Positions 4,846-64,000 of a stretch of DNA of 64,000 nucleotides are shown one piece after another. A program made the position numbers and the translations under genes. Origin of the DNA: Desulfurispirillum indicum S5 (GTDB taxonomy: Bacteria > Chrysiogenota > Chrysiogenetes > Chrysiogenales > Chrysiogenaceae); contig NC_014836.1 in assembly GCF_000177635.2 (NCBI RefSeq), positions 539,501 to 603,500 of the forward strand, read 5' to 3'. Positions within the stretch are counted from its first letter, which is position 1, and each line of letters starts with the position of its first letter. The notes below the pieces were generated by a model. It was not told where the DNA came from. It made no database searches and worked only from the letters and a program-made list of their open reading frames with translations.

Positions 4846-6642
4846 ATGGAGAAAGCTGAAGAAAAAGTCCTGGGGATCTACTCCACGGAAGATATACAAG
4901 CAACGCTGGAGCGTCTGTCCGAAAGCTTTCGCGTTATCATGCGCGAGCTGCGTTTCATCATCGTCGACGAGACGGAGCCCTATGCTTTGAGTGAACGCCA
5001 GATGGCAAAATCCTGGAAGGTACGGGTTGTTCACAGTAAGCAGCCGTCCCGCCACCAGTTTTTCATGAGTATTACGCCCGATGAGAAGGAGCCTCTGACC
5101 ATGAATCTGCGGGTCTTCCGCCGCAGCGTGGTGGACGCGAACGATGCAAAGCCCTTGCAGGCCATTGAGGAGGAGATCTATCGCACCCTGGCCCTGAACA
5201 AGGTGGTTTTTGGTGTCGTGGGCCAGGGGGCCATTCGCAAAATGGCTCTGGATATATTCAATGAACTGCAGAAACCTTCCACCAGCGGGCCGGCGCCCTA
5301 TATGGATTTTCCCATTGCCCACGGCCAGAAGCGCATTCACGGGCAGGACTCGCGGGTGCAGTACAACTTTGATCGATACAATCCCGTGGGAAAGCTGCGC
5401 CAGGACGGCTCCATGGACTATGCCAAAAAGGATTTCACCCAGTATGTCTACGCCAACAAGGTGATCATGACCTACTATATGCCGGTTCAGGGTCAGCCGG
5501 GCATCACGCCCCTGGGTGAAATTCTGCCCCAGCACGTTGGCCAGGATGTGGAGCGCTTCCCCTTCCGTATCACCTCCGATAATCTCAAGACCATTCATCG
5601 CCTGGGGCGCATGGAAGTGCTCACCCGCAAGGAAGGATACTTTGTCATCGACCGCAATGGGCGGGCAGACATTGTGGATAACCTGGATATTGAGGGTGAG
5701 GTGAACATTGCCGTTACTGGTGATATCTACTTCGACGAACGGCGCAAGGACGTGCGCATCGTCCATGACGAGGTGGACGAGGACGCTGTGGGCCAGGGGC
5801 GCAGTGTTGAAGGCGAGAATATCTACATCAAAGGCAATATCGGCCCCAATGCCAGGATCAAGGGGCGTCGCATCGAAATCACCGGCAGTATTCACTCCAC
5901 GGCAACTATCGAAGGGGAGGAGTCTGTGCGTCTGAGCCGGGGCAGTGGGATTGTCACAGCTCCCGAGGTCGAGGCGAAATCCTTTCAGTCTGCCACAATT
6001 ACTGCCGATAAAGTGTATATTTGGGGAAATGTGGTAAGTACGAAAGTGTTCTGCCGTACTCTTGAACATGCGGGCACCATGAAGAGCACTCAGGTTACTG
6101 CCGCTGGCCCCGATGTGATTCTGGGCCATCTGATTGGTTCGGACAACCTCATCCAGGTGGATTACCACGGAGTTCCTTCGGTGGAGAAGCTGGTTGAGGA
6201 GTACGACAGCGAGCTGGCAAAACTGGAGCTGGAGCTGGCCACCCTCAGTCGTGATATCCGCAATAAGTCCACGGAAATCCAGCACGACCGGGGTCAGGTG
6301 GAGAACGCCCTGAAGGAGATCGCGCGGGTTCGCAAGATGGGCAATGAGCCGCCGGTTGCCATGGTGAAGCTGGTCAAGAAATTCCGCGACAACAGGAGTT
6401 TTCTGGAAGAGGCACTTGTGCGCCTGGAAGCCGGTAAAAAACAGCAGAAGAGCACCGGGATGAAAAAGGAAAAGCTGCTGGAGATCACCCATAAAACCGC
6501 CGTGCATATCAGCGAAGGAGCTGAAGCCGGCAATCGCATACGGTTTTTCGGGCAGAGTCAGCCCAAGGAGATACCGGCCCAGAAACGGGCCATGATGTTG
6601 GAGCTTGGCCCCGATGGCCGATTGAGGGTTCTGCATGGATAG
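4846..6642 (+). CDS. FapA/DUF342 domain protein (first of tandem pair)
   Basis: A roughly 598-residue protein of the FapA (DUF342) family, whose beta-helical core is built of repeated strands such as NIYIKGNIG and RIEITGSIH. Residues 1-160 form an unassigned N-terminal domain. A FapA N-terminal-like block (IAHGQKRIHGQDSRVQYNFD) precedes the beta-helix at about 285-430, and a C-terminal coiled coil spans about 440-530. The ATG at 4846 has AGGGG just upstream; an ATG at 4825 and a GTG at 4816 are alternatives. The next gene overlaps by 8 bases. FapA proteins have been linked to flagellar placement and cell-surface or envelope assembly, but no flagellar genes are nearby, so the role here is unknown. 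Confidence 0.8.
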   Translation: MEKAEEKVLGIYSTEDIQATLERLSESFRVIMRELRFIIVDETEPYALSERQMAKSWKVRVVHSKQPSRHQFFMSITPDEKEPLTMNLRVFRRSVVDANDAKPLQAIEEEIYRTLALNKVVFGVVGQGAIRKMALDIFNELQKPSTSGPAPYMDFPIAHGQKRIHGQDSRVQYNFDRYNPVGKLRQDGSMDYAKKDFTQYVYANKVIMTYYMPVQGQPGITPLGEILPQHVGQDVERFPFRITSDNLKTIHRLGRMEVLTRKEGYFVIDRNGRADIVDNLDIEGEVNIAVTGDIYFDERRKDVRIVHDEVDEDAVGQGRSVEGENIYIKGNIGPNARIKGRRIEITGSIHSTATIEGEESVRLSRGSGIVTAPEVEAKSFQSATITADKVYIWGNVVSTKVFCRTLEHAGTMKSTQVTAAGPDVILGHLIGSDNLIQVDYHGVPSVEKLVEEYDSELAKLELELATLSRDIRNKSTEIQHDRGQVENALKEIARVRKMGNEPPVAMVKLVKKFRDNRSFLEEALVRLEAGKKQQKSTGMKKEKLLEITHKTAVHISEGAEAGNRIRFFGQSQPKEIPAQKRAMMLELGPDGRLRVLHG

Positions 6643-8404
6643 TTCGCATATTGGCATGGTGGAACAGCAGATTGTGGTCAGCAATATTCAGGATGCCCTG
6701 GTGCAGGCATCCCACAAGCACCATATCGCCCTGGAGAACCTGGATTTTTCCATCCACAATATTTCTGATCTGCAGCGGGGAGAAGAGTTCTTCTACCGTG
6801 ATTACACCATCGATATCTTCCAGCGGGGGTTTTCGCCGGTGGAGCTGCACTACTCTCTGAAAACCGCGTCCAATACCACCTCTGTGCGTTTTTATCAGGG
6901 CTCCAGCGTGGATGTCACCATGGCAACTCCCCTGGAAGTCCTTACGGAAATCAAAAAGGTGCTGGCCAAGGAGGGCGTGGTCTACGGGGTCTATGACGAC
7001 GAAACCCTCTACCGGATTGCTGCCGCCGTGCACCGGGCCTTTGTGGAGAAATCCGATATTCCCGATGAACCCTTCGCCGTGGCCAGTGGCCAGAACCCCA
7101 GGGCCAGCGCTGATCTGGCCTACCCCACCTACCACTTCGACCGCCACGGACTGATTGCCAGCGGTGGTGGTCAGGAGCCCATGCTCTCTCCCTTTGAGAT
7201 GGGCAAGGACACCTTTATCGTCCGCGAAGGCGAGCTGCTGATCACCGAGCCGATTCTGCGGGAGTCGCAGCTGCAGATCAGCACCTCCGGCTACATTGTC
7301 AATCCCGTCAACGGCCCGCGCCTGCCCTTCCATGACTTCTCCCCCGATATCCGCCGTGAACAGACCCCCGAAGCCTATCTCTACTACGCCGAAAAAGACG
7401 GCTACCTGTCGGTGGAAAAGGGCACACTGCTGATTCGTCCCCAGGTGAGCTTTGAGTCCGATGTCCTGGACAGCAAAGATGCCGCCCAGGCAAAAAAACG
7501 CGAGGACATTGTCCTTGGCGCCAGCGATGAAACCAAAGACGCCGTCAGCGCCGGTCAGGTCATCGAAGGCCGCAATGTCACCATTAACGGCCACGTGGGA
7601 GCGGGTGCCATCATCCGGGGGCTCAATGTCACCATCAACGGTGTCCTGCACAAGGATGCCTGCATCGAGGCAGAGCATGAAGCGGTGGTGGACATCTCCA
7701 AAGGAACCGTACGGGCTGATCGCGCCAAAATCAACATGCTGGAAGGGGGAACCGTCGAAGCCACCTCCAGTGTGGAGGTGCTGGGGAAATCCATGCAAAG
7801 CGTCATCAAGTCGCCGCGCATTTTCATCAACGAGCTGAAGAATTGCAGTGTGACCACCGGTGGCTACCAGATCCGCATCAACACCGTTTCCGACGGCACC
7901 AATTTTTTCACCATTGATCCCCTGACCATCGAGAGTGTCAATACACGCTACCAGATGGCCCTCGGCCAGCAGAAGGAACTGCTGAAAAAACTGAAGGCCA
8001 TTCGTCAGTCCTATAACAGCAAGAAGAACCAGCTGGCCGACGTGCGCAAACAGTACGAACCCCTGCGGGGTAAGATCGAGAAGCTGCGCCGCCAGTCAAG
8101 TGCCGTGCCCTCAGCCTTTCAGAATATTGTTGAACGCCATAACAGCCTGACCAAGGAAGTCATCAGCCTGAAGCAGCAGGCCCAGGTGATCGTGCGCCAG
8201 CTCTCCACCCTGGAGGACTTCATCTATCGCATCCAGTATGTGGAAACCACCACCTCCTTCACCGTCTACAAGCGCCTGCCCAAAGGCAATATCCTCAAGT
8301 ACGGCAAGAGCAGCGCCCACATCACCATCGACCAGGATCTGGCCGGAGTAACCGTGGGTAAAAATCGCGCCGGCAAGCTTGAATACCGCCTGGTACGTGG
8401 ATAG
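6635..8404 (+). CDS. FapA/DUF342 domain protein (second of tandem pair)
   Basis: A 589-residue paralogue of the preceding protein with the same order of parts: a divergent N-terminal domain, a FapA N-terminal-like segment around residues 160-175 (LAYPTYHFDRHG), the beta-helix at about 300-430 (for example NVTINGHVGAGAIIRG), and a C-terminal coiled coil at about 440-540. It starts 8 bases inside the upstream gene, so the two are co-translated and probably form a hetero-complex. The C-terminus ends 15 bases before repeat A2. A second pair of FapA-type genes lies at 32.0-34.3 kb. Confidence 0.8.
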   Translation: MDSSHIGMVEQQIVVSNIQDALVQASHKHHIALENLDFSIHNISDLQRGEEFFYRDYTIDIFQRGFSPVELHYSLKTASNTTSVRFYQGSSVDVTMATPLEVLTEIKKVLAKEGVVYGVYDDETLYRIAAAVHRAFVEKSDIPDEPFAVASGQNPRASADLAYPTYHFDRHGLIASGGGQEPMLSPFEMGKDTFIVREGELLITEPILRESQLQISTSGYIVNPVNGPRLPFHDFSPDIRREQTPEAYLYYAEKDGYLSVEKGTLLIRPQVSFESDVLDSKDAAQAKKREDIVLGASDETKDAVSAGQVIEGRNVTINGHVGAGAIIRGLNVTINGVLHKDACIEAEHEAVVDISKGTVRADRAKINMLEGGTVEATSSVEVLGKSMQSVIKSPRIFINELKNCSVTTGGYQIRINTVSDGTNFFTIDPLTIESVNTRYQMALGQQKELLKKLKAIRQSYNSKKNQLADVRKQYEPLRGKIEKLRRQSSAVPSAFQNIVERHNSLTKEVISLKQQAQVIVRQLSTLEDFIYRIQYVETTTSFTVYKRLPKGNILKYGKSSAHITIDQDLAGVTVGKNRAGKLEYRLVRG

Positions 8405-54344: not shown

Positions 54345-55103
54345 TCAGCGGGGGAAAATCCCCTGCAGGTAGCTGTTCAGATTGGTTTTGATGGGCATGA
54401 AGTATATATGAAATCCGTCGGTGGCGTGAACAAAATCCAGCGCCTGCCGTGCGAATTCCAGGTTCCAGTTCATAGTGGGTTCAAAGCTGCGGGGGAAGAC
54501 CGCCGCGTTGCGCGTCTCCCAGTAGTGCTGGGAGCGCTCCGCCAGCACCGGGCTCACCCCCCAGTAGACCTGCTCCCCCTCCAGCAGCTCGCCGTACAGC
54601 TCCATCAGGCGCATGTCGAAGAAGGGCTGGGTAAAGAACCCATCAGCCCCCACGTCCAGCTTGTGCTGCACATCCTCCATCTCTTCGCGAAAGCTCTGGC
54701 GGTAAGGGTCAATGGCCGCGTATACCCGGATATGGGGCGCTTCGCGCTTGAACTTGCGGATGATATCCACACTGGTGGAGGGGTAGATGGTGCGGGCGTG
54801 GTTCTGGGGAATATCCCCCGCGATAACCAGCACCTCCTCAATACGGTGCTCCACCAGGTACTCCACCATGGGCAGCGGCTTGCGGGGGTGGATATCGATG
54901 GCGCGGATATGGGCGATGGCGTCCAGCCCATGGCCGCGCACCAGGCGGCATCCCTGCCAGCTGCGCATGTCAAAGCGCAGGATATCGGGAATGTTGACCG
55001 CCGTGACGACGGGAAACTGCTCCAGAACAGCCAGCTCCTCCTGCAGGGATTCATCGCTGCGGGGAACCAGTTCGACGGCTATGCGGGTGGGGAGGGTGGT
55101 CAT
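54345..55103 (-). CDS. Methylenetetrahydrofolate reductase-like protein (MetF family)
   Basis: A roughly 252-residue TIM-barrel protein. Segments matching the MetF family are AVELVPRSDESLQEELAVLE near the start, VLVIAGDIPQ (like the LRGDP motif), VGADGFFTQPFFDMRLMEL and the C-terminal GFHIYFMPIKTN. It is shorter and more divergent than typical MetF, so flavin-dependent reduction of methylene-THF is likely but not certain. The ATG at 55103 follows AAAGGA; an upstream in-frame Met would read into repeat sequence. Confidence 0.75.
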   Translation of the reverse strand: MTTLPTRIAVELVPRSDESLQEELAVLEQFPVVTAVNIPDILRFDMRSWQGCRLVRGHGLDAIAHIRAIDIHPRKPLPMVEYLVEHRIEEVLVIAGDIPQNHARTIYPSTSVDIIRKFKREAPHIRVYAAIDPYRQSFREEMEDVQHKLDVGADGFFTQPFFDMRLMELYGELLEGEQVYWGVSPVLAERSQHYWETRNAAVFPRSFEPTMNWNLEFARQALDFVHATDGFHIYFMPIKTNLNSYLQGIFPR

Positions 55104-55136
55104 GTAATATCCTTTCACGGTATTCAGCGCAAAATA

Positions 55137-55254
55137 GCTGAGTTTCACACAAAGCCCACAAAGGCCCAAAGAAAGACAATGTCTCTCGCCCGTTCGCTGC
55201 GCTCACTCAAGCCGCGAAGGGCGCGAAGAAAGAGCAAAAGAGCGAAGCCATCGT
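55137..55254. repeat. Block C-like repeat before A4
   Basis: AGTTTCACACAAAGCCCACA and CTCTCGCCCGTTCGCTGCGC match the background text of the 13-20 kb island. No gene. Confidence 0.6.
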
Positions 55255-55547
55255 GCCACCGCTTCCTGCAGGTGTCCCGTGTGGGTCTTGCCAGCCAGGC
55301 GTCGCACTCACCGGACGGGCTCAGGGGGGAACGGCCTGCTTCTGTCTCTCCCCCGTGTGCTGGCCCAGCCAGGACGCGCAGACTGGAACGCTATGGACCC
55401 GCAGGGTTGCCGCCACGAGGGCGGCAACCGCAAACCAAAAGCCACGGAGGGCGGTTGTTTGCGGTCCCCAGTTCCAGGCAAGCGAACGGCTGAAAAGGAC
55501 AGCACTGGGGGTCGCTTTTGCGCCACTTTTGGCGAGTCAAAAGTGGC
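55255..55547 (+). repeat. Repeat family A, copy 4 (truncated left end)
   Basis: It matches copy 1 from CTTCCTGCAGGTGTCCCG to the right hairpin GCCACTTTT/AAAAGTGGC (55522-55547). It lacks the left hairpin and any B insertion. The perfect hairpin GGTTGCCGCC/GGCGGCAACC (near 55405-55430) is the clearest of the internal inverted repeats. Confidence 0.78.
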
Positions 55548-55590
55548 AGGAAGTGCAGGAGAGCAGAACCACTCAAGCAATTGGATACGG

Positions 55591-56382
55591 TTATTGAAAG
55601 TTACTTCGTTTTTCAAAACGAAACAATCCCTCCGCATTCCCCCATATCTGCTGCGCCAGCTCTTCCACTTCCACTCCCCGCAGGCGGGCCACGGCTTCGT
55701 AGACGTGCAGTACCAGAGCACTTTCATTCTCTTTGCCGCGCTGGGGAACGGGGGCCAGGTAGGGGGCGTCGGTTTCACACAGCAGACGATCGGCGGGCAG
55801 GAAGCGGGCCACTTCGTGCATGGCGGTGGCTTTGGGGAAGCTCACGATTCCGGGCAGGGAGATAAGGTATCCCATATCCAGGTAGGTGGCGGCTTCCTGG
55901 CAGGTGCCGGTGAAGCAGTGGATGACGCCGCGGCAGGAGTACTGGCGCAGGATGGCGGCGGTATCTTCGAAGGCGTCGCGGCTGTGGACCATGACGGGCA
56001 GGTCGTGCTGCTGTGCCAGCTGCAGGTGGTGGTGGAAGGATTCCTGCTGGTCCTTGATAAAGTCACGGGTCCAGTAGTAGTCGAGTCCGGTTTCGCCGAT
56101 GGCAACGGTTCTGGGGTACCGTACCAGTTCGCTGAAGCTTTGCAGGCTTCGCTCAACGGCCTTGGCGTCCTGGCTTTCCGAGGGGTGGATGCCTACGCTC
56201 ATGAAGACTTCAGGATAGGTTTCGCAGAGGTTGCGGTTGGTGAAGTTATCTTCGTCGTCGGTGCCCACGGTAATGATGCGGCCCACTCCATTGGAGCGGG
56301 CGCGCTTGATTCGTTCATCCACACTGGCTCCGTAGGCGTAGTCCTTGAGGGCCAGGTGGGTATGGATGTCCACCAGTTGCAT
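55591..56382 (-). CDS. TatD family hydrolase
   Basis: A 263-residue metal-dependent DNase of the TatD/YcfH family. Metal ligands are in DIHTHL (residues 4-9), GETGLDYYW (Glu near 95), HSRDAF, HCFTG and the C-terminal ETDAPYLAP (Asp near 206). The ATG overlaps the metG stop by one base. It ends the conserved tmk-holB-ricT-metG-tatD run known from many bacteria. Confidence 0.94.
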   Translation of the reverse strand: MQLVDIHTHLALKDYAYGASVDERIKRARSNGVGRIITVGTDDEDNFTNRNLCETYPEVFMSVGIHPSESQDAKAVERSLQSFSELVRYPRTVAIGETGLDYYWTRDFIKDQQESFHHHLQLAQQHDLPVMVHSRDAFEDTAAILRQYSCRGVIHCFTGTCQEAATYLDMGYLISLPGIVSFPKATAMHEVARFLPADRLLCETDAPYLAPVPQRGKENESALVLHVYEAVARLRGVEVEELAQQIWGNAEGLFRFEKRSNFQ

Positions 56383-58271
56383 CAGCGGATTTCCGTGCCG
56401 GGGGCCACCTCGTCGCTGAGGAAGGGGATTTCGTGGCGGTTGGCGCGGTTCTTGGCGGCCAGAATCATGCCATCGGATTCAATACCCATGATTTTGGCGG
56501 GCTTGAGATTGGCTACCACGGGTACGGTTCTGCCCGGCAGATCTTCGGGTTTATAGGACTGGGCGATGCCGCTGACGATGGTGCGGGGGGTGCCTTCACC
56601 CAGGTCCACGGAAAGCAGCAGCAGTTTGCTGGACTTGGGCACCTTTTCGCAGGTGAGCACTTTGCCGGCCCGTATGGAGACGCTGAGGAACTGGTCGAAC
56701 TCGATGCGCTCCGACTCGGCTGGAGTCTGGGAGGCGGGGGACTCTTCCTGTACCACGGGCACTTCTTCCACCCGGCTGAACAGGGCGGGCATCTGCTCCA
56801 TATGGCAGCCGCTGGCGGCAAAGCTGAAGCTGAAGTCGCCGTCCAGGGTACAGCCCAGCGCCTGCAGAATTTTACGGGACGAGGAGGGCATAAAGGGATA
56901 GACGGCGTTGGCGATGACGCGCAGGCCTTCGGCGGTGGTGGCCAGGGAGGTCTGCAGCTCGGTGGTTTTGCCGGCCTTGTGCAGGGCCCAGGGCTCGGTT
57001 TCCACTATGTACTTGTTGAGGCTGCCTACGATTTCCCAGATTTTCATGAGAGCGCGGTTGAAGGCCATGACCTCCATATCGGCACGGTAGCCCTCCATGC
57101 GCTCGCCTGTGGCCTGAATCAGCGCCTGTTCGCGTTCCTGCAGGGGGCCGGAGGCGGGGGTCAGGCCATCGAAGTAGCGGAACATCATGCCGGAGGTGCG
57201 GCTGAGCAGGTTGCCCAGGTCGTTGGCCAGGTCGCTGTTGATGCGTCCCACCAGGGCCTGCATGCTGAAGTCACCGTCCAGGCCAAAGGGCACTTCCCGC
57301 AGCAGGAAGTAGCGGATGGGATCCACGCCGAATTTCTCCACGAGGATGTTGGGATCCACGGCGTTCATGAGGGACTTGCTCATCTTCTTGCCTTCCACGG
57401 TCCACCAGCCATGGGCGAAGACCTGCCTTGGCAGCTCAATGCCGGCGGCCATGAGAAAGGTGGGCCAATAGACCGTGTGGAAACGCAGGATATCCTTGCC
57501 GACGACGTGGGCGGAAGCGGGCCAGTAGCGTTGCCACTTTTCCTCATCACTGCCGTAGCCGATGGCGGTCATATAGTTGGAGAGGGCGTCGAACCAGACG
57601 TAGATCACGTGCTCGGGATCATCGGGGACTTTGATGCCCCAGTCGAAGGTGGTGCGGGAGATGGACAGGTCGCGCAGGCCGCTTTCGATAAAGCGGATGA
57701 TCTCGTTGCGTCGGCTTTCGGGCTGGATAAAGCCGGGGTTGGTTTTTATGTGTTCCAGCAAGGGTTCAGCGTATTTGCTCATGCGGAAGAAGTAGGATTT
57801 CTCCTTGAGCTTGTCCACACTGCGCCCGCAGTCGGGGCAGTTGATGGCTTCTCCCACCTGGGTCTCGGTCCAGAAGGATTCACAGGGAGTGCAGTACCAG
57901 CCTTCGTATTCGCCCAGGTAAATGTCACCCTGCTCCCGCAGCTGGCGGAAGAGCTTGTGTACTCCCATTTCGTGGCGCTTCTCCGTGGTGCGGATAAAGT
58001 CGTCGTGGGAGATATCCAGGGTGGTCCACAGTTCCTGGAAACGCTTCACCACGCGATTGGCCAGCTCAATGGGGGTCTCGCCGTTCTTGCGGGCGGCCTG
58101 CTCTATCTTCATGCCGTGTTCGTCAGTGCCGGTAAGGAACATAACGTCGCGTCCCATGAGGCGCTGAAACCGGGCTGCCACGTCGCAGGCCACGGTGGTA
58201 TAGGCATGGCCTATGTGGGGGACGTCATTAACATAATAGATTGGCGTGGTGACATAGTAGGTCTGGGACAT
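56382..58271 (-). CDS. metG: Methionyl-tRNA synthetase
   Basis: A 629-residue class I synthetase. The catalytic HIGH motif is PHIGHAYTT (about residues 17-25), and KMSKS is KKMSKSLMNAVDPN (near 295). One zinc knuckle of the single-zinc type, CTPCESF with CPDC, lies near 127-147. The C-terminal EMAP/tRNA-binding domain (about 520-629) has VGxAxSHPxA-like text and GIESDGMILAA. ATG at 58271 has GAGG 6 bases before it; an ATG four codons earlier is weaker. No T-box leader is apparent upstream. Confidence 0.97.
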   Translation of the reverse strand: MSQTYYVTTPIYYVNDVPHIGHAYTTVACDVAARFQRLMGRDVMFLTGTDEHGMKIEQAARKNGETPIELANRVVKRFQELWTTLDISHDDFIRTTEKRHEMGVHKLFRQLREQGDIYLGEYEGWYCTPCESFWTETQVGEAINCPDCGRSVDKLKEKSYFFRMSKYAEPLLEHIKTNPGFIQPESRRNEIIRFIESGLRDLSISRTTFDWGIKVPDDPEHVIYVWFDALSNYMTAIGYGSDEEKWQRYWPASAHVVGKDILRFHTVYWPTFLMAAGIELPRQVFAHGWWTVEGKKMSKSLMNAVDPNILVEKFGVDPIRYFLLREVPFGLDGDFSMQALVGRINSDLANDLGNLLSRTSGMMFRYFDGLTPASGPLQEREQALIQATGERMEGYRADMEVMAFNRALMKIWEIVGSLNKYIVETEPWALHKAGKTTELQTSLATTAEGLRVIANAVYPFMPSSSRKILQALGCTLDGDFSFSFAASGCHMEQMPALFSRVEEVPVVQEESPASQTPAESERIEFDQFLSVSIRAGKVLTCEKVPKSSKLLLLSVDLGEGTPRTIVSGIAQSYKPEDLPGRTVPVVANLKPAKIMGIESDGMILAAKNRANRHEIPFLSDEVAPGTEIR

Positions 58272-58312
58272 GCTGAACCTCATTGTAATAGTAGTCGTCT
58301 CAGTTCGCGAGT

Positions 58313-59707
58313 CTACTTCTGGTCGGAGTTTCCGCCTTTACTGTGATCGTGAACTGTCCCACTGCGACGCTCTTTCCACTGGGGAGCGGCGCGGGAGATG
58401 GAGAAGTTCTGGTTCCTGCCGGAGTCGGCTCCACCGGTAGCCGCAGTGGGGGACTTTTTCTCCCGCTGCTCGGTGCGTTCGCCACCTTTATTCTCACGGC
58501 GATCCTTGCTGCGGCGGCTGCTTTTGCCAGAACGCCTTTTGCGACTGCGCGGAGCAGAGGGCTCCTGCCCGGGCTGCTGCTCCTGGGGCTGCGAGCGGGC
58601 GATTTTTGGCGAGGCCTGATCTTCGGTTATACCCAGGCTGGCCATCTTTTCGCGGTGCAGCGAAGCCAGTTCAGCCAGAGAGTCCCCTTCATCGGCGGGA
58701 GGTGCTTTTTCAATGGCCGGTGCCTTCTTGTGTTCACACATGCAGGCACTCTTGCCGTCATGGCAGCGGGAACAGCCTGCGCCGGACTTGGGGATTTTCC
58801 CGGTCAGGTCGATCTCCTCGTACTTACCATCATGGGTGTAGACGAGGATGGTACGCTTGAGGGGGTTGAGCTTTTTGACGGTTCCCCGGATGCGACCATC
58901 ATCGTATTCGGAGTCGATGGTGGGCATGCCTTCCAGGGCCTGTTCGTACTGGGAGTGCTCATAAACCAGACAGCACATGAGGCGGCCGCACAGGCCGGAT
59001 ATCTTGGAAGGACTGAGGTTGAGGTTTTGCTCTTTGGCCATGCGGATGGAAACAGGGGCAAAGTCGCGCAGGAAGGTGCTGCAGCAGCAGGTGCGTCCAC
59101 AGGGGGCAAAGCCGCCCAGCAATTTGGTTTCATCGCGTACGCCGATCTGACGCATTTCAATGCGGGTCTTGAATTCCTGGGCCAGATCCTTGACCAGTTC
59201 ACGGAAATCCACTCGTCCGTCGGAGGTGAAGTAGAAAGTGATCTTGGTGGCGTCGAAGAGGTATTCCACCCGCACCAGCTTCATGGGAAGTTTGTGTTTT
59301 TTGATGCGGTGAAGGGCGGTTTCAAAGGCGTACTTCTCCATCTCCAGGTTGGCCTTGTGCATGGCCACATCCTCTTCGGTGGCCCGTCGCACGACCCGGC
59401 GGTAGACGCGACCCTTGTCGCGGTCCGTGATGTAGGGAGGATGGACAACCGTGGCGATACCAACGCCTTTTTCCAGGGAGACGATAATGTAGTCGTTGGC
59501 CGCCAGCTCCAGTGATTCATTGTGAAGGAATTCATAGAGTTTTCCGGCGGTGCGGAATTTGACGCTGACGACCTTTATGCGATCCGGCAGCGCCGCTTGC
59601 TCAGCAAGCTCAGCATCTGAAATTTCGGGCTTGAGTGCGTCGTCGAAAGGATCCGGCGAATCTTCGCGATATCCTGAAGAGTTTCTATTATACGGTAAGG
59701 GCTGCAT
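58313..59707 (-). CDS. PSP1-domain protein (RicT/YaaT-like) with long charged C-terminus
   Basis: A 464-residue protein of the PSP1 family, associated with RNA processing and phosphorelay control in Bacillus. The PSP1 core runs from about residue 42 (RIKVVSVKFRTAGKLYEF) to 300, with the cysteine motifs GRTCCCSTF and GRLMCCLVYE. A third Cys cluster (CSRCHDG and CMCEHKK, near 315-330) could bind metal. The last 120 residues are basic, Ser/Arg/Lys/Glu rich and probably disordered. The ATG at 59707 overlaps holB by 133 bases and has no good ribosome-binding site. A start nearer residue 40 is possible, but I see no ATG or GTG there. Confidence 0.88.
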   Translation of the reverse strand: MQPLPYNRNSSGYREDSPDPFDDALKPEISDAELAEQAALPDRIKVVSVKFRTAGKLYEFLHNESLELAANDYIIVSLEKGVGIATVVHPPYITDRDKGRVYRRVVRRATEEDVAMHKANLEMEKYAFETALHRIKKHKLPMKLVRVEYLFDATKITFYFTSDGRVDFRELVKDLAQEFKTRIEMRQIGVRDETKLLGGFAPCGRTCCCSTFLRDFAPVSIRMAKEQNLNLSPSKISGLCGRLMCCLVYEHSQYEQALEGMPTIDSEYDDGRIRGTVKKLNPLKRTILVYTHDGKYEEIDLTGKIPKSGAGCSRCHDGKSACMCEHKKAPAIEKAPPADEGDSLAELASLHREKMASLGITEDQASPKIARSQPQEQQPGQEPSAPRSRKRRSGKSSRRSKDRRENKGGERTEQREKKSPTAATGGADSGRNQNFSISRAAPQWKERRSGTVHDHSKGGNSDQK

Positions 59708-60501
59708 GGGAGTATTTTATACACCTTGTCATATTTTCCGGTTTCCACAAAAACCAGGGCGTCGCGAAAGTACACGTGAAACACACGCAGAATTCGCTGC
59801 CACTGGTCGGCATTGTCCATGAGATACTGCATACTGCTTTCATCAAGGGTTCCCGCGAGGATGCCCCGTGCCAGAGCCACTGCCTGAACGATGAACTGCA
59901 GGTCGTCGCGGCTGGTACAGCTGGTGTCCGCAACTTTAAGGAGCAACTGTATTTCATTTTCCGAAAATTGTAAATCCATTAGATGACGCCGGTACTCTTC
60001 CAGAATCAGTGGCTGGAAGTGGATATACGCCAACCGGGAACGCACCGTGGGCAGGAAGAAGGAGGGGACATCGGAAAGCAGGAAGAGGATGCTGCCTTCC
60101 GGGGGCTCTTCAAGGGTTTTGAGCAGGGCGTTCTCCTGTACCCGGTTGACGGCGTCGCTGGAGGTCATTTTCTCCGCCTGCTCGATAATCAGCGCCTTGT
60201 AGCGGAAATTGCCATCCACGGAGGTGGACTCCAGAAAGTCGCTGCCTTCGCGAATATCATCAATGGTAATCTGCCCCTTTTCCGGCTCAATGTGTCGGAT
60301 TGCCATGTACTCACGCAAACAACAGTAGCACTGGCCGCACGGCTGCACGCCCCGGGGATCAAGGCAGTTGAGGCCCTTGACAAAATAGGTGGCGAAATCC
60401 AGTGCCAGGGGGGCGCCGCTGCCCACCAGGTAGCCGTGGTGGGGTCGCTGGCGGCCCATTTCACGCTGATAGAGGTCCAGATAGGGCGGTGTATCAGCCA
60501 T
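59575..60501 (-). CDS. holB: DNA polymerase III delta-prime subunit
   Basis: A 308-residue clamp-loader subunit. The N-terminal AAA+-like fold begins PYLDLYQREMGRQRPHHGYL, has a degenerate P-loop (GSGAPLALDF) as usual for delta-prime, and zinc cysteines CGQCYCCL. It also has NALLKTLEEPPEGSILFLLS and the SRC-like VRSRLAYIHF. Its 3' end overlaps the PSP1 gene by 133 bases, an unusually long same-strand overlap. Its start overlaps tmk by 8 bases. Confidence 0.92.
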   Translation of the reverse strand: MADTPPYLDLYQREMGRQRPHHGYLVGSGAPLALDFATYFVKGLNCLDPRGVQPCGQCYCCLREYMAIRHIEPEKGQITIDDIREGSDFLESTSVDGNFRYKALIIEQAEKMTSSDAVNRVQENALLKTLEEPPEGSILFLLSDVPSFFLPTVRSRLAYIHFQPLILEEYRRHLMDLQFSENEIQLLLKVADTSCTSRDDLQFIVQAVALARGILAGTLDESSMQYLMDNADQWQRILRVFHVYFRDALVFVETGKYDKVYKILPCSPYRIIETLQDIAKIRRILSTTHSSPKFQMLSLLSKRRCRIA

Positions 60502-61120
60502 CCAGCAATCCGCCTTCGTGCAGTGCTGCTACTATGGATCCATGGACCTGCTCAGGATTGCGGGAGCCATCAATCAGCCGACAGTGCGCATCGTGGGAGG
60601 CCACTTCCCGGAAGCCGGCAACTACCCGACGGTGAAAGTCCTCCGAAAGGGCATCGAAGCTGTTGTTATTCTCCAGGCGCTGCTGAACACGATTTTGCCC
60701 AGCCTCCGCCTCCACGTCCAGTACCAGCTGCATATGGGGAGCCAGGCCACAGGTGGCAATGGCATTGAGCTGGCCAATCAGCTCCCGGTCCAGACCCCGC
60801 CCGTACCCCTGATATACCAGGGTGGAAAGAGTGAAGCGATCGCAGAGCACCCAGATGCCCTTCTCCAGTAAAGGCATAATGCGCTCCTCAACATGCTGGG
60901 CGCGGGCTGCGGCAAACAACAGCAGCTCTGCCCGGGGAACCAGGTTATGGCGGGAATCGAAAATCAGATTGCGGATAGCCTCGGCACCAGGTGTGCCACC
61001 GGGCTCGCGGGTGCAGTGGTGCAGAATATCGCGGTCATCCAGATAGCGGGAGAGCAGGGAGAGCTGGGTGGTTTTCCCGGCTCCGTCCGGCCCTTCAAAG
61101 CTGATAAAGCGTCCGTTCAT
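60494..61120 (-). CDS. tmk: Thymidylate kinase
   Basis: A roughly 208-residue kinase that makes dTDP. P-loop FEGPDGAGKTTQLSLL at the N-terminus, the TREPGGTPGAEAIRNL motif, and the LID/substrate region LCDRFTLSTLVYQGYGRGLD (the usual DRYxxS is DRFTLS here). It overlaps holB by 8 bases. The ATG at 61120 lies two bases after the stop of the upstream cupin-YbaK gene, so the two genes may be co-expressed. Confidence 0.95.
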   Translation of the reverse strand: MNGRFISFEGPDGAGKTTQLSLLSRYLDDRDILHHCTREPGGTPGAEAIRNLIFDSRHNLVPRAELLLFAAARAQHVEERIMPLLEKGIWVLCDRFTLSTLVYQGYGRGLDRELIGQLNAIATCGLAPHMQLVLDVEAEAGQNRVQQRLENNNSFDALSEDFHRRVVAGFREVASHDAHCRLIDGSRNPEQVHGSIVAALHEGGLLDG

Positions 61121-61122
61121 GG

Positions 61123-62046
61123 TTATGCGCCCTGTGTGTCCCTGGCAAAGTCGCATTTGCGCAGGCCAAGGAGAGTTGTCAGTTCGTGAAAGCTGGTGCG
61201 GAATCCATTATTGATTCCACCGGCAGCGGGGAATATTTCCGGGTGGCTCTTCAGGGAGATGTCGGCGTATATCGGAAGTGCTCCCAGGAGAGCAAAGGGG
61301 CTGACAGAACCGGCCAGAAATCCGGTGGCTGCCAGCGTGCGCTCCGGCGAGGCCATGGTGAAGCGATGTCCGAAGTGCTGGCGAACTTTGCCCATGTCGA
61401 TTCTGCGGTCACCGGGGAGTACGACGATAATGCACTGTGCTGTGTCGTCGCTGAGGACAATACTCTTGGCGATCTGGCTCACGTTGACATTCAGAGCGGC
61501 GGCTGCCTCTTCAGCGGTTCTGGTGGGTGTCTTGTGGTCGTAGTAGCGCTCCATCATTCCGTGGTTCAGCAGGTGTGAGAGCACCTGTTCCCGGGAATTG
61601 GCCAGGATGATTCGCTGCAGAAAGGCTTTTGCCCCTTCCCTGTCGGAGTGTTCGGGGGCCCAGGGGGCTTCAGTGAAGCGCTGAGGTTTGCCGTAGTGGG
61701 ACTCATAGAGGATACTGGATGGCTCCAGAGCCAGGACGCTGTGGAAAGTGCCAGAGGGAATTTCCGCGCCCCGGCAGTGCAGATCGCTTCCCAGAATACT
61801 GATATCATCAATGGTATTATCTGGCGTGAAGGTTGCCACCAGGAATTTTCCCTGCACGCACAACAGCATCTTGTCGGTGCCGTGGCTGGCAAAGGGGCGA
61901 ATATAGCCATCGGGTTCGAGGGCATGCAGAAGGCGACGGATGGTTCCATCGGTGGAGCTGTGGAACTCATCAATATGCTGTTTGCGGGGGTTTTCCCTGG
62001 CGCGTTGGGCCAGGGAGTGAAAGAGGCTGCAATCCAAACGCTTCAT
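61123..62046 (-). CDS. WbuC-type cupin fused to YbaK/ProX aminoacyl-tRNA deacylase domain
   Basis: A roughly 307-residue two-domain protein. Residues 1-130 match the WbuC cupin family (RARENPRKQHIDEFHSS, LLCVQGKFLVATFTPD, GAEIPSGTFHSVLALEP), though the usual metal His pair is reduced. Residues 160-300 match the YbaK/ProX editing domain, with AKSIVLSDD, the RIDMGKV block, TGFLAGSVSPFALL and AGGINNGFRTSFHELTT. YbaK domains hydrolyse mischarged Cys- or Ala-tRNA(Pro). AGGAA precedes the ATG. I know no standard protein with this fusion. It sits between a strong terminator and tmk. The YbaK part is secure, the cupin part probable. Confidence 0.8.
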   Translation of the reverse strand: MKRLDCSLFHSLAQRARENPRKQHIDEFHSSTDGTIRRLLHALEPDGYIRPFASHGTDKMLLCVQGKFLVATFTPDNTIDDISILGSDLHCRGAEIPSGTFHSVLALEPSSILYESHYGKPQRFTEAPWAPEHSDREGAKAFLQRIILANSREQVLSHLLNHGMMERYYDHKTPTRTAEEAAAALNVNVSQIAKSIVLSDDTAQCIIVVLPGDRRIDMGKVRQHFGHRFTMASPERTLAATGFLAGSVSPFALLGALPIYADISLKSHPEIFPAAGGINNGFRTSFHELTTLLGLRKCDFARDTQGA

Positions 62047-62130
62047 GATATATTTCCTTTGACCTGTCAGAAACAGGATATTCAGCGGCACAATACTGCA
62101 AAAGTACTTTTTACCATAAAACGTGACATG

Positions 62131-62178
62131 AAAAAAGCAGCAGCTGTTTCCTGTTCTGCAGGAAACAGCTGCTGCTTT
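62131..62178 (-). terminator. Very strong stem-loop terminator upstream of the cupin-YbaK gene
   Basis: AAAGCAGCAGCTGTTTCCTG is followed by TTCTG and its perfect complement (20-bp stem, 5-base loop). On the minus strand a T run (62131-62136) follows. It stops transcription from the preceding small gene, 50 bases away. Confidence 0.85.
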
Positions 62179-62229
62179 ACCGCCGGGGCGGATCAAAAGT
62201 CACAAGCGGTGAAGTTTTTGGGGCAATTC

Positions 62230-62574
62230 CTAGAGGGAGAAGATCTCCTCCAGTTTCAGTCGCTTCCATTGGGATTTGGAGAGATTCGGTATAATTATCT
62301 CCATGGCTTCCACGGGTTCGGCATCTGTCCACTGGTCAAGTTGCGCGGGGTACCCCATGTAGCCGGCAAGGTGCATGAGTATTTCGTCGAGAAAATGGTA
62401 GGTGTCTCCCAGGAGTTTGATCATCTTGGCGTGCTGCTCCCTGAGGTGGGTTTCGCCCCGGGTGATCTGAAAGAGGTATTCTTCGTCGCAGACACCGGAA
62501 AGGTAGTGTATGACATCTTCGGCGCAGGCCTGACGCAGCAGGTATACCGCCCTGGATTTGTCTACAATGGTCAT
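62230..62574 (-). CDS. Unknown 114-aa protein
   Basis: I do not recognise this gene. The 114-residue product starts TIVDKSRAVYLLRQACAED and is acidic and helical by inspection, with no membrane segment, signal peptide or metal motif apart from scattered Cys and His. The ATG at 62574 is preceded by GGAGGAA. It is transcribed alone, between the divergent YqeK-like gene and the long terminator at 62131-62178. Confidence 0.7.
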   Translation of the reverse strand: MTIVDKSRAVYLLRQACAEDVIHYLSGVCDEEYLFQITRGETHLREQHAKMIKLLGDTYHFLDEILMHLAGYMGYPAQLDQWTDAEPVEAMEIIIPNLSKSQWKRLKLEEIFSL

Positions 62575-62731
62575 CGCTTTCCTCCAGCCAGAGTAGTCGG
62601 CAGTCTTTCCTGACTGCCGTCAGGGCTGGATGCAAGGGTCGGGCCAAGAGAGCGTCTTTCTGATTACAGGCGCTTATGCTAGAGTGCTGTGGCATCGACA
62701 GGAAAAATCTTCACCCCAGGCAGGGAAAAAC

Positions 62732-63304
62732 ATGCATTCAGATATACGTCCTCAGCTCAGAAAACACTACCAAAATGAGCCTTTAAAGCTTCGTCAGCAT
62801 GTGGAGCGGGTGGTGGCGCTTGCCCTGGAACTGGCGTGTGTTCACAGTGTTGATCTGGTAGATGTGGAGACAGCTGCCCTGGGGCACGACCTCTTCCGCT
62901 CCCGCTCCGCAGAATTCTACCGGCAAAAGGCGCGGGAGTACGGCTTGAGCCGCCCGGACTATGAAGAGTTCCCATTGATGTACCACGGACCTCTTGCTGC
63001 AGCCTATATGCGCGAAACCTTTGAGTATCACCACTGGCCTGTTCTACAGGCTGTTGCCGAGCACACCAATCTCAGTGGTCAGTCTGCCCTGAACCCCATT
63101 GCTCAGATTCTTTTTCTGGCAGACAAGCTGGAACCAGGCAAGGGTAAACCCTATCAGGATGAACTTACGGCTCTGGCGCGGCAGAGTCTTCCCGTGGCCG
63201 TTTACCAGCTGTGCGGCCTGATGGCCGACTATATGGCAGGTCAGGGGAGCTTCGCAGTGCCTCACGACTTGCTGGAGGCGCGCCAGGTGCTGGCTGCTCC
63301 ATAA
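62732..63304 (+). CDS. HD-domain phosphohydrolase, YqeK-like
   Basis: The 190-residue product carries an HD metal domain: an early His in LRQHVERV, the HD pair in AALGHDLFRS, the MYHGPLAAAYM block, AVAEHTNLSG and LADKLEPGKG. The latter three are hallmarks of YqeK, which cleaves diadenosine tetraphosphate symmetrically. AGGGA precedes the ATG. YqeK is often beside nadD and rsfS, but not here. The C-terminal AVYQLCGLMADYMAG region fits family length. Confidence 0.82.
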   Translation: MHSDIRPQLRKHYQNEPLKLRQHVERVVALALELACVHSVDLVDVETAALGHDLFRSRSAEFYRQKAREYGLSRPDYEEFPLMYHGPLAAAYMRETFEYHHWPVLQAVAEHTNLSGQSALNPIAQILFLADKLEPGKGKPYQDELTALARQSLPVAVYQLCGLMADYMAGQGSFAVPHDLLEARQVLAAP

Positions 63305-63345
63305 AAAAAGCCCCTGAACCAGGGCTTTCGCACAGATTCAGGGGA
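63303..63345 (-). terminator. Terminator of the cupredoxin operon
   Basis: On the minus strand CCCCTGAA/TTCAGGGG closes a loop containing AAAGCCC, followed by a run of T. It serves the cupredoxin gene; the YqeK-like gene ends in the same interval. Confidence 0.7.
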
Positions 63346-63379
63346 AACAGGAGATCGCTATAATGGCTTGTGGCTTGGG

Positions 63380-63763
63380 CTATTCTACGACCAGTGTCCC
63401 TCGCAGTCTCGTATGGAGAGGGCTGCAGATGACACTGCACACAAAACCGAATTCCCCCTTGCGCTCAGGGGTGAATTCAATGGTCTTCATTTTGCCTGGC
63501 TGAATAACGCCCGCGTCAATACCCAGCTCTCCGATGATGAGTCCGTGGGTGACGTCTTCGCTGATCAGGCGCAGGCGAACCGGCTCTCCCTGCTTGACGA
63601 CGATGCGGCTTGGGGAGTAGCCACCGTTTTCCACGGTGCGAATAATCAGGTCGATGGTGTGGGGTGGCTGGCCGATATTTTTGGCCAGGGTTACGCCGAT
63701 GGGGATGCCGATAACCATCAGGGCTATGGCCGCTGCTGCCAGAATCTCTCGGTACGATTTCAT
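63380..63763 (-). CDS. Membrane-anchored cupredoxin (CoxII-like CuA motif)
   Basis: A 127-residue protein with an N-terminal signal or anchor helix (residues about 6-26) and one cupredoxin fold. The metal ligands are His73 (DVTHG), and Cys109, Cys113 and His117 (CSVICSPLH). This is the CxxxCxxxH pattern of the binuclear CuA site of cytochrome oxidase subunit II. The Met three residues later is Leu here, so the site may be altered or mononuclear. GGGAGGA precedes the ATG. It follows a membrane protein gene, cut by the window edge, 18 bases away. Confidence 0.85.
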   Translation of the reverse strand: MKSYREILAAAAIALMVIGIPIGVTLAKNIGQPPHTIDLIIRTVENGGYSPSRIVVKQGEPVRLRLISEDVTHGLIIGELGIDAGVIQPGKMKTIEFTPERKGEFGFVCSVICSPLHTRLRGTLVVE

Positions 63764-63781
63764 GATTCCTCCCTTTGATGC

Positions 63782-64000
63782 TTACAGGAACAGCCAGAGA
63801 AACAGGCCGGTCACGATGGTCAAAAAAGCGGTTACCGGCAGCAGGAGGCGTATTTTCTGTCCGGCTTCCAGGGGATACTTGGCCAGCAGCCTGGCGCCGG
63901 TGTTATTGGAGAAATACAGACCGACCAGCAGGATCAGGGCCTGGATATAGGGGTAGAAGCTGGTGCCAACGGGCTTCCACTCCAGGTCACGTGTGCCGAA
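63782..64000 (-). CDS. Membrane protein, C-terminal fragment (cut by window end)
   Basis: An open frame reaching the window edge encodes at least 72 residues with two hydrophobic helices (ALILLVGLYF and LLLPVTAFLTIVTGLFLWLF) and ends TAA, 18 bases before the cupredoxin start. It resembles the end of an inner-membrane protein. Its position next to a CuA-type cupredoxin makes a respiratory or copper-handling role possible but not shown. Partial. Confidence 0.55.
   Translation of the reverse strand, partial: FGTRDLEWKPVGTSFYPYIQALILLVGLYFSNNTGARLLAKYPLEAGQKIRLLLPVTAFLTIVTGLFLWLFL

Follow-up and report, generated by a model that had tools for sequence, protein, structure and literature searches.

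The window analysed here is a stretch of 64,000 nucleotides of the genome of Desulfurispirillum indicum S5 (contig NC_014836.1, positions 539,501 to 603,500). A single unbroken frame of 307 codons plus stop (61123-62046, minus strand), with an AGGA a few bases upstream of its ATG, encodes a 307-aa protein comprising a cupin and an aminoacyl-tRNA editing domain. The features of this locus, in window positions, are:

56382..58283, minus strand: metG, methionyl-tRNA synthetase (NF008900, 872.5 bits, cut-off 598)
58313..59707, minus strand: ricT/PSP1 gene (NF041131, 271.4 bits, cut-off 70)
59575..60501, minus strand: holB-like gene, DNA polymerase III delta prime domain (PF13177, 99.9 bits, cut-off 27; TIGR00678, 104.6 bits, below its cut-off of 180.6)
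60494..61120, minus strand: tmk, dTMP kinase, starting 2 bases after the fusion stop (TIGR00041, 159.8 bits, cut-off 83.25)
61123..62046, minus strand: fusion gene for a 307-aa protein with a WbuC-type cupin and an INS/YbaK-superfamily tRNA editing domain (profiles; orthologues)
61135..61563, minus strand: INS-type aminoacyl-tRNA editing domain, residues 162-304 (PF04073, 96.4 bits; 2z0k, Z 21.2)
61465..61467, minus strand: K194, the lysine conserved across the INS superfamily (invariant in three fusions, aligned with the Lys of 2cx5)
61564..61641, minus strand: joining helix, residues 136-161 (AlphaFold2 model)
61669..62046, minus strand: cupin domain, residues 1-126, with the WbuC profile match over residues 4-119 (TIGR04366, 72.1 bits; cupin fold in the model)
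61741..61743, minus strand: H102, the sole retained cupin ligand position (alignment)
61870..61893, minus strand: degraded metal site F52, S54, K59, which are H, H, E in other WbuC (alignment columns and ungapped residues)
62134..62178, minus strand: perfect 20-bp hairpin followed by a T run, terminator-like, upstream of the fusion (stem 20/20 paired)

The N-terminal part of the protein matches the WbuC profile TIGR04366 well above its cut-off of 42, as well as PF19480 (DUF6016; 28.0 bits over residues 7-69, cut-off 27), and the C-terminal part matches PF04073 (tRNA_edit) over residues 174-282 (cut-off 25.5). The first-pass annotation had proposed that a WbuC-type cupin is fused here to a YbaK-type domain, and had made this depend on a WbuC profile match at the N-terminus; the match is present, and the WbuC cupin and the YbaK-superfamily editing domain are truly on one chain. 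A chance N-terminal match is ruled out by the score, which reaches 137.9 bits in the orthologue of genome G001 and 62.2 bits in the other orthologue (genome G002). A frameshift or assembly artefact is likewise ruled out, one open frame of full length being found in three genomes. Among solved structures, the top match of the fusion protein by sequence is 2cx5 (E 1.2e-16).

The gene order downstream of the fusion, namely tmk, holB-like, ricT and metG, is the same in all three genomes, tmk and ricT having been called by profile in the window and by eye in G001 and G002. The fusion stop and the tmk start are closely spaced in each of them (TAA-CC-ATG in the window, an ATGA overlap in G002 and TAG-T-ATG in G001). 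The metG products score 872.5, 890.7 and 887.6 bits in the three genomes, and the holB-like products 104.6, 98.9 and 103.0 bits with TIGR00678, all below cut-off. The fusion probably heads its own transcript, since the hairpin and T run separate it from the upstream gene; the count of terminator-like sites (1 found; shuffles average 0.5, sd 1.1) proves nothing by itself. No Rfam family reached threshold in the region 55000-64000 of the window.

Beyond the hairpin lies a gene for a 114-aa protein (62230-62574, minus strand), which has a counterpart upstream of the fusion in G002 (L132:6236-6610) with 58% identity. This protein matches nothing in Pfam or NCBIfam and occurs in two of the 11 genomes searched, being absent from G001 and eight other relatives. 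Among the three fusion genomes, its carriers are the two genera whose cupin has lost the metal site.

The AlphaFold2 model of the fusion protein (mean pLDDT 91.5, pTM 0.77) consists of a beta barrel extending to about residue 126, a single helix (residues 136-161) and an editing fold (residues 162-304); the model of the G001 orthologue is concordant (pLDDT 93.3, pTM 0.80). The barrel resembles cupin structures such as oxalate oxidase (2ete, Z 13.5) and CapF (4yrd, Z 12.6), and a single-sequence query with the G001 cupin half (130 residues) retrieved no solved structure as a sequence relative (best E 1.2). Residues 149-303 of the model superimpose on 2z0k with Z 21.2 and an rmsd of 2.1 A over 154 aligned residues, placing the predicted domain within the INS fold. 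The other matches of the editing half are 1wdv (Z 20.9), YbaK (1dbx, Z 19.4), the prolyl-tRNA synthetase (ProRS) structure 2j3l (Z 14.8) and Caulobacter crescentus 1vjf (Z 12.5). Alignments A3 and A4 were built from 56 of the available rows, and A3 places the initial helices of the single-domain editing proteins wrongly, so that model detail near the junction may suffer.

Four positions of the WbuC family, H52, H54, E59 and H102 in the numbering of the G001 protein, may be assigned as metal ligands by cupin precedent rather than from a WbuC structure. They are kept in 51, 52, 53 and 53, respectively, of 53 WbuC frames, which come from 52 loci and of which one (L104) sits within a methyltransferase frame. 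The G001 cupin retains all four. The corresponding residues are F52, S54, K59 and H102 in the window protein and V, L, K and H in the G002 protein, read from ungapped numbering because the alignment is gapped at E59 in both rows. Two otherwise conserved residues, G77 and P120, are also lost in these two ligand-poor cupins. The metal ligands, whose conservation the first-pass annotation had singled out for checking together with the editing lysine, are therefore intact in one orthologue, with three of the four gone in the window protein and in that of G002. The window and G002 cupins are sisters (support 100/99) whose common stem is long, at 1.59 changes per column, and the ligands were therefore likely lost in their common ancestor.

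The barrel is nevertheless not decayed. The window and G002 cupins are 53.8% identical to each other, and 37.9 and 42.4% identical to that of G001, near the values for the editing half (60.0, 56.7 and 60.0% across the three fusion pairs), which speaks for a structural job, statements on conservation being weak with three fusion orthologues. Positions that the fusion cupin shares with the WbuC family include Y48, R50, P51, G66, F73, H102 and E115, and part of the barrel is conserved across all three fusions. The net charge of the cupin is -4, -9 and -8 in the three proteins; docking or dimerisation thus fits better than direct RNA binding, and a role of the cupin as an RNA-binding arm is disfavoured.

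The C-terminal domain carries K194 inside the motif QIAKSIV, which, like the loop GSVSPF, is invariant in the three fusions. The corresponding lysine is reported to be strictly conserved in the superfamily and required for A76 binding and deacylation (PMC10164551), and the YbaK-type lysine, which the first-pass annotation wanted checked, is in place. The name YbaK itself does not hold in the narrow sense: with the YbaK/EbsC equivalog profile TIGR00011 the fusion scores 62.9 bits against a cut-off of 153.25, its orthologues score 65.9 and 68.8, and the D. indicum genome encodes a separate YbaK at 176.4 bits (168.5 against a cut-off of 243 under the narrower NF007951). The third PF04073 domain of this genome is the insertion domain of ProRS (NF006625, 761.4 bits). 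In G001 and G002 the PF04073 proteins are the fusion and ProRS only.

Placement of the editing domain in a named subfamily was not obtained from trees with or without long references; throughout, L012 (a long frame) was omitted and frames of more than 230 codons were trimmed to the last 190. In the tree with long references the fusions group with the ProRS insertion domains (51/51), and approximately unbiased (AU) tests gave p values of 0.072 for the fusions with 2cx5 alone, 0.079 with 1wdv, 0.197 with YbaK and 0.279 with YeaK. When both ProRS domains, YeaK, 1wdv, L092 and L111 were left out, the fusions fell into a seven-row set (97/93) with four single-domain proteins (L004, L005, L013 and L093), 2cx5 lying outside; the grouping of the fusions with YbaK was again not rejected (p 0.182). 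The review PMC11295145 lists the structure 2CX5 as representing ProXp-x, which deacylates aminobutyryl-tRNA, and similarity favours a substrate of the ProXp-x kind, but the trees do not settle the subfamily.

Full-length orthologues of the fusion were found in all three genomes examined of the class, D. indicum included, the two other genera having identities of 56% and 48%. When 59 genomes, again including D. indicum, were searched with the window protein, 42 contained matches, and only the three fusion genomes gave a match of whole length. TIGR04366 exceeded its cut-off in four of these 59, namely the three fusion genomes and G057, where the frame has 178 codons. A fusion profile, which recovers 3/3 in the class, found 0/45 and 0/132 genomes at E 1e-25 in two other phyla, inside which there was no positive control. 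One public collection was scanned with two short patterns taken from the fusions, giving 100 stretches that encode a relative; in the best 80 of these 100 loci there were 52 with a WbuC frame and 28 with an editing frame, and none with both domains in one frame or even one locus. The scan itself used the W-A-P-E pattern, so that the conservation of this stretch among other WbuC sequences is in part built in. Scans of genome contigs with the window protein alone (27 pattern matches) and of viral sequences (31 pattern matches) yielded zero relatives. Spread by mobile elements was considered and rejected: records covering 80% of the query were 0 of 791 matching plasmid records for the window protein, 0 of 2734 for the G001 protein and 0 of 6 phage records.

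The three fusion cupins form a clade (99/94) against 53 other WbuC frames, and the three fusion editing domains form one at 100/100 without the long-branch references and at 76/26 with them. Since both halves are monophyletic, one fusion event is likely, and its occurrence before the three genera diverged is the simplest reading. The earlier statement that cupin and editing domains are not normally joined agrees with our searches for the same architecture elsewhere, and is to be qualified by one class, in which the joining is found. A search of the open-access literature, which covered nothing wider, returned no paper combining a cupin with YbaK/aminoacyl-tRNA or with trans-editing. The combination of a WbuC cupin with an INS editing domain thus adds a new architecture to a known kind of enzyme and has so far been seen in one small class.

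The surroundings of WbuC genes elsewhere are mixed, and no single role of WbuC follows from them. Of 97 neighbours found at the 52 WbuC loci, 73 were scanned; six belong to one methyltransferase family, five to a glycosyltransferase family, four are HisRS and three HisG. In four contigs labelled Bacteroidales or Bacteroidia WbuC adjoins hisS (L035:6529-7920, L033:6518-7879, L040:6583-7947 and L043:6537-7913), and all four candidates exceed the cut-off of the histidyl-tRNA synthetase profile TIGR00442, which is possibly a second hint of WbuC touching translation. In a metagenome-assembled genome (MAG) labelled as an uncultured archaeon, one 608-codon frame (L104:4669-6492) carries a WbuC-like stretch (51.4 bits by phmmer, no DUF6016 match) behind a sugar-type C-methyltransferase (Pfam), so that fusions of WbuC with further enzymes may exist. 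Two tandem WbuC frames (L094:5887-6441 and 6441-6971) lie on one bacterial MAG contig. Two other WbuC frames, H27 in a Klebsiella plasmid record and H36 in an Escherichia phage record, carry the annotation tryptophan synthase; this label looks wrong because the match is to WbuC.

From the computed architecture, predicted folds, lysine, ligand loss, single origin and gene order we infer that the protein is an INS (YbaK/ProXp) trans-editing deacylase that acquired its WbuC cupin in a single event, in an ancestor of the class, as a non-catalytic oligomerisation or docking module; we give this reading a probability of about 0.6. The C-terminal domain would receive a mischarged tRNA by its 3' end, K194 would steer A76 into the pocket, and hydrolysis would remove the wrong amino acid, probably a small aliphatic one of the Ala or 2-aminobutyrate kind. 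The cupin, hardly able to hold the usual metal in D. indicum, would set the oligomeric state or dock a partner, comparable to the C-terminal domain of plant ProXp-ala, to which it is unrelated. The reading as a whole is consistent with the high confidence at which both halves are predicted and with the Z of 21.2 to Thermus thermophilus ProX carrying an Ala-sulfamoyl analogue (2z0k). A ligand-poor cupin that has changed, yet has been held near the conservation of the editing half, is as expected of a structural part. Against a purely scaffolding cupin counts G001, which keeps all four ligands, so that at least one member may use metal; against a named subfamily count the association with the ProRS domains at 51/51, the 76/26 grouping of the fusions and the p values for the YbaK clade.

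Cupin barrels commonly bind small ligands, and the cupin might instead be a sensor in which a sugar nucleotide, keto acid or amino acid alters the editing activity. The intact ligand set of G001, the part of the barrel conserved in all three fusions and the glycosyltransferase and methyltransferase neighbours of other WbuC genes agree with such a sensor, but a common ligand should have preserved the pocket, in which three of four ligand positions as well as G77 and P120 are lost in two of three orthologues, and none of the downstream genes tmk, holB-like, ricT and metG is sugar-related; we consider it unlikely. The first-pass idea of a regulated or ligand-sensing deacylase is narrowed accordingly; a different aminoacyl substrate, its other suggestion, may apply. 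In D. indicum the cupin is unlikely to sense or catalyse by means of a metal, given that this protein and that of G002 have other residues at three of the four WbuC ligand positions, and, judged from sequence, metal-based sensing cannot be a general property of the class, two of the three members lacking the site. Metal-dependent sensing would be possible for G001, and metal-free binding would also be possible. The full ligand set and the 137.9 bits of the G001 protein would equally suit a bifunctional protein, in which a metal cupin active in an unspecified reaction would work beside the editing domain, an arrangement that fits neither the window protein nor that of G002 and seems improbable.

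Also improbable is a loss of tRNA editing by the INS domain in favour of binding or signalling. Other INS-fold fusions provide precedents, namely SadB (9qzk, Z 13.4) and Maqu_0641 (3mem, Z 13.2), and SadB is described as joining a YbaK-like domain to HDOD and binding c-di-GMP (PMC6543031). The fusion, in contrast, has K194 and the GSVSPF loop invariant, is closer to the editing enzyme 2cx5 (Z 21.0, 32% identity over 154 residues) than to SadB (14%), and resides in a housekeeping cluster with metG in all three genomes. A more speculative scheme, to which we attach little probability, is metabolite-controlled proofreading, in which a metal cupin of the class ancestor would have read a metabolite and gated tRNA editing; G001 would have retained the switch, and the other two genera would have lost the metal and locked the enzyme in a single state, the small protein encoded upstream perhaps serving them as a substitute partner.

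The fusion is chiefly of interest for how proofreading factors evolve. It represents a bacterial INS member with a stably inherited second domain, encoded in a gene cluster that otherwise has housekeeping functions. With the metal site intact in one orthologue and lost in the two others, the three amount to a natural experiment, which can show whether an added cupin contributes activity or sensing at first and is later retained as a scaffold.

Among known systems, ProXp-x of T. thermophilus (TTHA1699, 2cx5/2z0k) shares with the fusion the editing fold (Z 21.2, 2.1 A, 154 residues, 32% identity) and the conserved lysine and is its best sequence match among solved structures, but it is a single-domain protein, and 2cx5 remains outside the seven-row fusion set in the tree without long references. 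The YbaK/EbsC Cys-tRNA(Pro) deacylases (TIGR00011) have the superfamily, the fold (1dbx, Z 19.4) and the lysine in common with the fusion, which scores far below their cut-off in a genome carrying its own YbaK. The cupin passes the WbuC profile and keeps positions of this family, yet it is without three of four ligands and is fused, the other WbuC frames being mostly of about 155-180 codons compared to 307. The C. crescentus structure 1vjf (CC_0111), which we take to be ProXp-ala, is far more distant from the model (Z 12.5). SadB likewise joins an INS-fold domain to an unrelated one, but is described as a c-di-GMP-binding signalling protein whose YbaK-like domain is N-terminal (PMC6543031), and is distant from the fusion (Z 13.4). 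Fusion of ProXp-ala to ProRS in some protists is mentioned in PMC11295145. Plant ProXp-ala, as reported in PMC9425024, also consists of an INS deacylase and one extra domain, which gives the enzyme dimerisation and better tRNA binding; that domain is helical and C-terminal, whereas the one added in the fusion is an N-terminal cupin.
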